64,000 nucleotides of DNA, from contig NZ_CP009512.1 in the NCBI RefSeq assembly GCF_000970205.1, forward strand, positions 3,658,001-3,722,000, given 5' to 3'. The notes beneath the pieces were generated by a model that did not search any database, was not told the origin of the DNA, and worked only from the letters and a program-made list of their open reading frames with translations. The stretch comes from Methanosarcina mazei S-6 (lineage in GTDB: Archaea > Halobacteriota > Methanosarcinia > Methanosarcinales > Methanosarcinaceae). This document shows positions 27,029-31,328 of the stretch, one piece after another (the first letter of the stretch is position 1; each line of letters begins with the position of its first letter). The position numbers were made by a program, and so were the translations under genes.

Positions 27029-27543
27029 GGAAAATCCCTCCATTTTTCAGAGTCACTGTAGAATTCCCTCAGGGAAGAGTCCGTCTCAACCCTATTCTAC
27101 AGCCTGAAAGCACAGTTTGCGAACCTTCTATCGGGCATTCATATCTCAGGGGATTATGGTTACTTTCCGATTAAATTCAGATGATATTGTTTCATGAAAA
27201 CTGTACATATATTAAAAGACAGTTTATAATTACTGTATTTATTCCCTCATTTTATCCTGGTTAACTGGAGTAAGCAGGCTCTCTGAAAATTGCATCAATT
27301 TCCCATTTTTAGACAATTTTCAGAAGCCTTAAGATTCGCCAGAGAGTGATGCTGAGCAGGTGTACTGCACAGCTTTTTCTATGCTTATTGGGTTCCCGTG
27401 AGCTATAACCAGATCCGCGAATTATGAATGGGTGCAGATCCTGCCTATGCCGTCAACTACAGGTTTCGCAGCAACTGTACAAAATAAAGCTGAACAGAAA
27501 ATGCATTAGACAAAATCTCCTGCATTTTCTGCTTATTGAGCCT
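27029..27543 (-). promoter_or_regulatory. mttC-mttP intergenic leader with hairpin
   Basis: This is 515 bases on the leader side of mttP. A minus-strand TATA-like TTATAAA (around 27225) suggests an internal promoter. One TCATGA (27192-27197), the palindrome repeated upstream of mtbC, is present. A 9-bp perfect stem CTGTAGAAT/ATTCTACAG (27094-27102 with 27056-27064) ends about 15 nt before the mttP ribosome site and could control its translation. Confidence 0.45.
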
Positions 27544-29737: not shown

Positions 29738-30379
29738 TTAAGCCAGAAGCTCTTTTGCCTTTGTGACGGCTTCACTTGCGTTTTCTGCATAACAGTCTGC
29801 CCCGATCTTGTCAGCCCATGCCTGGGTTGCGGGTGCACCGCCGATCATGACCTTTACTTTGTCTCTCAGCCCTTCTTCTTTGAGAAGTTCTATAACATCT
29901 CTCTGTCCGGGGAGGGTTGTGGTCATAAGAGCAGAAAGTCCAATCATGTCAGCATTGACTTCTTTTGCTTTCTCGATAAAGTTCCTGATCGGGACATCAC
30001 GACCGATGTCATGCACTTCAAAACCGGCTGACTGGAGCATTGTGGACACAATAGATTTACCGATGTCATGGACATCGCCTTCTACGGTTCCGTTGACAAT
30101 AACACCCATTTTTGAGCTCGCAGAGCCTTCAGGCATAAGATCTTTAAGGGCGTTTACTCCTGCAGTCATCGCGTCGGCAGCCATCATTACGTGGGGTAAG
30201 AAAAGTTTGCCTCTTTCAAAGCGGACCCCAACTTCATTCATGCCTGCTGCAAGTCCGTTTTCAATTATTTCGGAAGGGTCTAATTCTCCTTTTGCCTTTT
30301 CAACGGCAGCGAGTACCGCATCCTTCTTACAGGTGATTACTGCATCTGCAAGTTCCTGAAGCAGTTCTTCTTTGCTAAT
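29738..30379 (-). CDS. mtbC: Dimethylamine corrinoid protein MtbC, apparent ATT start
   Basis: The protein has 213 residues: helical cap, then B12 domain with [15 protein letters not shown] and [11 protein letters not shown]. It carries the methyl group taken from dimethylamine by MtbB. Homology runs through [13 protein letters not shown], but no in-frame ATG, GTG or TTG lies upstream of the truncated MNEVG start (30241), and a TAG closes the frame just above. ATT at 30377-30379 lies 6 nt after GGAGGA (30386-30391) and gives the natural N-terminus. First gene of the methylamine cluster proper. Confidence 0.93.
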
Positions 30380-31328
30380 ATTGCATCCTCCATTCTAATT
30401 TTTAAACATTGGAGACTTCTACCAACTATCACGAATAATCATGATGATTGGGATGCTAGCTCACGCTCTTCGAGTCATGAGATGCACGAAAAGTAACTTA
30501 TGATGTCAGGGTGGGAAGCCAGGATCACCACAAGCAAAACTGCAAAATCATGAATTCTTCATGATTGCTTACTGGGGTTCATGAGAATTTAGCAGAGGGA
30601 ACATTTTGGTGCCATTTTAAATCCCGTCTGTTAACTCATCTTCACAGATGTCTCCAGATTAAACTGCGCTTTACTGGTATAAATATTTTGTTAAAAAAGA
30701 CGACAGAAAACAGAGGGTTCTATAAATAGTTTTTGGTTTAAATATTTTGAATAGAGTAAATGGAGAAGAAAAGAAGAGGGTAAACGAAAAAATATAAATA
30801 CTAAATACTAAAGATGTCCTTTTACAGGCACATGGTGAGAGAAAAAATAACCACATCATTTCAAGAGATTAAAGAGACTGAAATAGATATAATTTTTGGC
30901 ACATAATAGGCAAGAGAATAAATTAAGTCGCATGAAGCTGTTTATTATTCAAACTTCAAACCGGGGATTATATTGAGGATCAATAATTAATTTTTATGGG
31001 CACAATTTTTTATACATTCCTGAGCCTGAACAAATTCCGGATAAAAAACAGGAAAAAAACGAAAATATTATATATGAGATTTTTTACCGGGAAAGACATT
31101 AAGCAGGATCTCTACAGGGGAAAGAAAAAAAGCAATCTAAAAAACAGGAAATCAAGGAAAGCAAACAACATTAAAATTATATTAAAGAAAATCCAGTAAA
31201 TAGTTAATAGAATACGATAAATAGAATACGATAATTTGAAATTCGTGGAGCGGAATGCAAAAAACAAAAGAAAGGTAAAAAAGGATAAAGATTTCATGTA
31301 AGGGCAAAAAGAGGTTAGGACCCCATAT
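30380..31328 (-). promoter_or_regulatory. Long leader and promoter region of the methylamine operon
   Basis: About 950 bases without a supported gene. Five TCATGA palindromes (30439, 30475, 30548, 30559, 30579) fall within 146 bp, two of them inside a perfect 9-bp inverted repeat AATCATGAA/TTCATGATT (30546-30566). Minus-strand TATA-like boxes lie at about 30677-30688 and 30790-30800, so the mRNA leader would be roughly 270-400 nt. Frames such as 30996-31199 are lysine-rich low complexity and are not called. Confidence 0.5.

Follow-up and report, generated by a model that had tools for sequence, protein, structure and literature searches.

In this study, which was based on a 64,000-nucleotide stretch of the Methanosarcina mazei S-6 genome (the window), we asked what purpose is served by five copies of the palindrome TCATGA that are crowded upstream of mtbC, the first gene of the trimethylamine operon. 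This operon provides a main route for methylotrophic methanogenesis and also underlies an expression tool, and, to our knowledge, few natural cis-regulatory RNAs have been established in archaea. An earlier note on this DNA had read the palindromes either as a multi-site operator or as a self-pairing RNA control element. We found a real, conserved RNA leader at this locus, and the second of these alternatives was right as to structure.

Results

A direct check of the sequence placed TCATGA exactly where it had been claimed, i.e., at 30439, 30475, 30548, 30559 and 30579 upstream of mtbC and at 27192 before mttP, and confirmed the perfect 9-bp inverted repeat of AATCATGAA and TTCATGATT at 30546-30566. 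Five copies in 146 bp are indeed far beyond chance: none of the 20,000 order-1 simulations of the 276-nt leader gave such a cluster, and no palindromic hexamer reached five copies in 146 bp in 60 simulated windows. This simulated rarity is somewhat overstated, since CAATTG and TATATA likewise reach five per 146 bp in the real 64-kb window. The window as a whole contained 20 copies of TCATGA, compared to the 23.3 that were expected, i.e., there was no enrichment, and hence only the clustering is unusual. Only one further site in the 4.14-Mb genome (G000:C1:2693778-2693825) has three TCATGA spaced by no more than 30 bases, and two of the copies overlap there. The link that had been drawn to the sixth copy at 27192 fails, as its occurrence corresponds to the chance frequency and it is absent there in three relatives.

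The operon is read from the minus strand, on which the TATA box, the leader with its elements and the upstream frames also lie, in the order mtbC, mttB (with an in-frame amber codon), mttC, mttP and mtbB; its genes correspond to MM_1687-MM_1694 of Methanosarcina mazei Go1 (PMC3510493, PMC3407599). The mtbC gene (29738-30379; MM_1687 in Go1), which encodes the dimethylamine corrinoid protein, was recognised by its open reading frame and homologues and named after PMC3510493. Its transcription start was published as lying 414 nt upstream of the old mtbC start codon (Jager et al., via PMC3407599 and PMC11549558), while Ribo-seq moves the true start 138 nt (46 codons) upstream of the old one (PMC11549558). 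We took the ATG at 30241 as the old start codon; its methionine is then preceded by exactly 46 codons (ISKEE...LAAG). On this assignment, the 414 nt lead to a transcription start on the first G of GGAGACAUCUG, at 30655, whereas the 138 nt lead to an AUU start codon at 30377-30379. With transcription starting at 30655 and the start codon at 30379, the operon mtbC-mttB-mttC-mttP-mtbB has a 5' leader of 276 nt (30380-30655), which is transcribed upstream of the coding region and holds all five palindromes. The TATA box (AAAATATTTATA, 30678-30689), identified by its sequence and kept in the aligned relatives, precedes the published transcription start by approximately 28 nt. A second TATA-like box was observed a further 59 bp upstream (30734-30749 versus 30675-30690 for the main box, TGGTTTAAATATTTTG versus TGGTATAAATATTTTG), and a TATA-like stretch in this region is also conserved among the relatives.

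The long structured leader of M. mazei mtbC has already been published (PMC3407599, PMC11549558). According to PMC11549558, the TATA box together with the leader suffices for the trimethylamine induction of a reporter transcript, regulation is placed at the level of the transcript, and M. acetivorans is said, by personal communication, to have a repressor. No paper on that repressor was found in the literature searched, which was largely without subscription journals.

To compare the leader among relatives, mtbC upstream regions were drawn from whole genomes and named contigs, a covariance model (R1) was built from 19 leaders, 112 genomes of the family were searched with it and 28 leaders were aligned. 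The resulting fold consists of six helices. P1 joins its 5' arm (UGGAGACAUCU, 30646-30656), the first base of which lies one position before the published transcription start, to its 3' arm (AGAAGUCUCCA, 30410-30420); 96% of its cells are paired in the 28 leaders. P1 varies so little among them that it has little power to show covariation, and the case for it is built on conservation and folding. For P2 to P5, the paired cells could be compared with a tree-aware null. P2 (30581-30639), whose 3' arm CUCAU overlaps the palindrome at 30579-30584, is paired in 93% of the cells compared to 79% under the null. The hairpin P3 (30546-30566), in which both arms are TCATGA (30559-30564 and 30548-30553), reaches 95% against 84% and shows compensatory changes, and the hairpin P4 (30495-30535) with its conserved UUCCCAC loop reaches 94% against 82%. 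The hairpin P5 (30453-30487), whose 5' arm CUCAUG overlaps the palindrome at 30475-30480, is the most variable helix of the leader; it appears in individual folds and is paired in 71% of the cells against 51%. In the hairpin P6 (30422-30452), the palindrome at 30439-30444 lies in the 5' arm, and different relatives have TCATGA, TCACGA, TCATGG and so on at this site, with matching changes in the partner. In one relative, part of the P6 hairpin is duplicated in tandem (AATAATCGTGACAGAATAATCGTGAT, L123:641-959). The conserved unpaired sequences of the leader are AUGGCAC, ACCCC and UUCCCAC. Because the words UCAUG and CAUGA recur in several arms, alternative pairings are possible. On the first alignment, RNAalifold paired the 3' arm of P2 with the 3' arm of P5; local folding and realignment speak instead for P2 and P5 being two distinct helices.

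In the 28 leaders aligned to the covariance model, 89.2% of the cells pair and 29 of the 75 pairs show changes in both partners. Such changes affected 77 cells, compared to 26.8 in shuffles and 18-39 with slid partners. As the model alignment is fitted to the structure, the test was repeated on a structure-blind MAFFT alignment, and in the tree-aware null the substitutions of each column were placed at random on the tree. Against this null, the fraction of paired cells was 0.892 versus 0.754 ± 0.018 for the fitted alignment (z 7.9) and 0.865 versus 0.771 ± 0.020 for the blind one (z 4.8), with z 2.3 at most for the slid controls. Compensatory double changes on the same branch numbered 16 versus 2.9 in the fitted alignment and five versus 2.6, i.e., not above the null, in the blind one. 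An R-scape-like test of single-pair covariation with a branch-shuffled null found nothing significant inside or outside the structure in the 28 leaders, which may be what 28 related sequences would give. Compensatory change that maintains the structure is seen in the whole-structure tests and is significant in no single pair. The strand was also asymmetric. Relative to dinucleotide shuffles, the mean z of the folding energy was -4.03 for the sense and -2.37 for the antisense strand, with the sense strand lower in 24 of the 28 leaders, and G-U cells (290) far outnumbered A-C cells (67), although selecting the structure on the sense strand will itself have favoured G-U.

The earlier note had made its proposal depend on conservation of the cluster in relatives with the same operon. 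Among the 28 relatives, the cluster is kept unevenly and the RNA helices P2, P3, P5 and P6 persist. The leaders contain two to six copies of TCATGA each, against 0.27 expected. The individual sites at 30579, 30559, 30548, 30475 and 30439 are kept in 23, 25, 15, 7 and 10 of the 28, respectively. Where the hexamer was lost, at least five of the six pairs were left in 5/5 leaders for P2, in 2/3 and 11/13 for the two arms of P3 and in 15/18 for P6. The reuse of one word across several arms could have arisen through duplication of a hairpin; a repeated RNA-binding site is another possible reason.

In 27 of the 31 Methanosarcina genomes, and also in two sister genera (four and two genomes), the covariance model detected the leader a single time per genome, with a further weak match in another genus. 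All of the tested leader loci have mtbC and then mttB downstream, and no comparable copy was detected outside the trimethylamine operon in the same genome or in the 112 family genomes. In one genome (G005, L013/L039), an insertion of approximately 230 nt in the 3' part splits the leader, with the Shine-Dalgarno sequence and ATT being kept. A search of Rfam 15 returned no match to the leader at the gathering score or at E ≤ 1, as was also the case for four relatives, and the leader thus does not fall into a riboswitch family of that collection. No published genus-wide fold or comparative analysis was found in the literature searched, largely without subscription journals, and apparently the leader has not been described before as a family.

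The upstream-region comparison also bears on the start codon. The Shine-Dalgarno sequence GGAGG (30387-30391) is invariant in the 28 leaders, and AUU, a rare start codon, is the start in every readable leader-bearing mtbC. The comparison reaches the same AUU as the Ribo-seq offset independently of it, because the codon follows the invariant GGAGG, because the spacing between AUU and an out-of-frame AUG that overlaps GGAGG differs by one base among species, and because the Methanolobus copies of mtbC have ATG at the same place. The leaderless copies start otherwise, mostly with ATG, the exception being a Methanolobus copy (L079) that is leaderless yet has ATT. The out-of-frame AUG (GGAGGAUGCAAUAUUAG, 30375-30393) was found in 28/28 leaders, 7 or 8 nt from AUU, and opens a frame of three codons across the AUU start. 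In Methanococcoides mtbC (L082, L085-L088, L090-L092 and L095), ACG replaces ATG/ATT a few bases past GGAGG and is apparently another conserved non-AUG start. A published account of the conserved AUU was not found in the literature searched, again largely without subscription journals.

Discussion

Comparative analysis supports the view that the five palindromes are hairpin arms of a folded 5' leader and that selection acts on pairing in the sense RNA. The self-pairing half of the RNA alternative stands, as the leader is transcribed, the sites are helix arms and the pairing is conserved; as to its other half, we infer that the leader RNA controls the downstream gene. All in all, we consider a conserved and functional leader acting as sense RNA, as opposed to an operator, the likely explanation of this locus.

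The operator alternative, in which a dimeric repressor bound to TCATGA just downstream of the start would block transcription without trimethylamine, is probably wrong, and we regard it as improbable. It draws on a clustering that is real, on the presence of the word in all 28 leaders and on the two sites that are well conserved, as well as on the sufficiency of the promoter and leader for transcript-level induction and on the informally reported repressor (PMC11549558). The reporter result would be compatible with a repressor acting close to the transcription start. However, the sites of a DNA operator should be conserved independently of RNA pairing, and three of the five were lost in 13-21 of the 28 leaders while the pairing mostly persisted. 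The excess of G-U over A-C and the better folding of the sense strand point to RNA and are not predicted by DNA dyads. Moreover, an operator should be shared with co-regulated promoters, and TCATGA occurred 0, 0, 0 and 1 times in the approximately 700 nt before each of four other methylamine operons of the same genome, with the copy at 27192 not being conserved either. Chance or a mobile-element remnant is hardly credible: other hexamers do cluster occasionally, but this leader is conserved at the same operon over three genera and has no dispersed copies.

Two further explanations accept a folded leader. Upstream open reading frames, starting at AUGGCAC and at the TCATGA of P2, might couple the passage of ribosomes to leader folding and mtbC translation. 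In this TCATGA, TCA-TGA ends one frame and ATG opens another. Ribo-seq revealed two translated small open reading frames in the leader (PMC11549558). Of the two candidate frames considered here, the first (MAPKCSLC, 30589-30615) starts with AUG or GUG in nearly all of the leaders, and the second (MNPSKQS, 30559-30582) with AUG, GUG or AUU in 28/28. Nevertheless, the frames shift between species. The start of the first is mostly kept, but neither its frame nor its peptide is conserved and it ends in different frames; the peptide of the second is partly alike in relatives but frameshifted here and lost in the M. mazei group. Conserved upstream peptides are thus not supported by the 28 leaders, and at most two of the five TCATGA sites would be explained. 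Upstream frames may contribute, but we doubt that they are the explanation. A leader that purely slows mRNA decay and senses nothing, like the long 5' untranslated regions of the methanol genes, is a possible if somewhat unlikely alternative. Those of mtaA and mtaC were reported to make their transcripts more stable at low temperature (cited in PMC5378194), and P1 would close the 5' end of the RNA; conversely, the conserved unpaired sequences and the restriction to a single operon suggest a more specific role, although neither is proof of one.

If the folded leader does control mtbC, it would do so in cis, through the mRNA and at a stage later than transcription initiation. The fold supported by the comparison has at least five helices, P2 to P6, and these are enclosed by P1, in which the 5' end of the RNA is paired with a segment approximately 20 nt before the Shine-Dalgarno sequence. 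The 5' arm of P1 resembles the Shine-Dalgarno sequence, so that either of the two could serve as the partner of the 3' arm. When P1 is formed, the 5' end would be protected and GGAGG and AUU free, so that the message would be stable and translated; with P1 open, the 3' arm (GUCUCC) could pair with GGAGG, which would turn off the weak AUU start and expose the message to decay. P1 might be opened or closed by a methylamine, by the state of the corrinoid, by a protein that binds the repeated UCAUGA hairpins or by ribosomes translating an upstream frame, and the promoter may in addition be under a transcriptional repressor. The evidence for this exchange comes from folding predictions. When P1 was blocked in the M. 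mazei S-6 sequence, pairing between the Shine-Dalgarno sequence and the 3' arm was predicted at 0.88, and it exceeded 0.5 in only 12 of the 28 leaders; in single-sequence folds, P1 pairing averages only 0.50. We put the switch forward as a tentative and rather unlikely model. Still less likely, taken as a whole, is a new archaeal class of leader RNAs that would sense either methylamine or the status of the corrinoid, possibly by way of a protein on the near-identical UCAUGA hairpins, and gate AUU through the exchange between P1 and the Shine-Dalgarno sequence. With a fold of named helices and a conserved AUU, trimethylamine control of the operon becomes testable by paired mutations in tractable strains.

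The nearest known system is the p1687 expression system (MM_1687 of M. mazei Go1), which uses this same leader with its operon and transcription start, and in which the corrected start codon coincides with the AUU described here. In the available text of its papers, it is a promoter and untranslated-region tool in one strain, with no comparison with relatives and with AUU unnamed. There, a riboswitch was rejected on the basis of a change at the transcript level (PMC3407599, PMC11549558). Such a change is compatible with control by the leader RNA, as premature termination (attenuation) or altered decay would also lower the transcript. The mtaC, mtaA and cdh leaders are likewise long 5' leaders on catabolic operons for which an effect after initiation was reported (cited in PMC5378194 and PMC3600222); compared by description only, the mtbC leader differs in having a genus-wide fold and being confined to one operon. 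The proposed switch would resemble the anti-Shine-Dalgarno translational riboswitches, in that a single segment could have as its partner either the Shine-Dalgarno sequence or a 5' portion of the leader. Unlike these, the mtbC leader has no known ligand or Rfam match, and folding predictions show its switch to be conserved in part only. The PYLIS elements (Rfam RF02509 and RF02510) are also RNA elements annotated in this operon, but they sit in the coding sequences of mtbB and mttB.

A second conserved hairpin was observed in the gap between mttC and mttP, directly before the mttP start (27044-27110, minus strand; UUUCAG..CUGUAGAAU..CUGAGGGA..AUUCUACAG..CUGAAAAAUG). It has no Rfam match in the window. 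Among 22 genomes (L138-L159), its arms show matching changes and the GAGGGA in its internal loop is nearly invariant.
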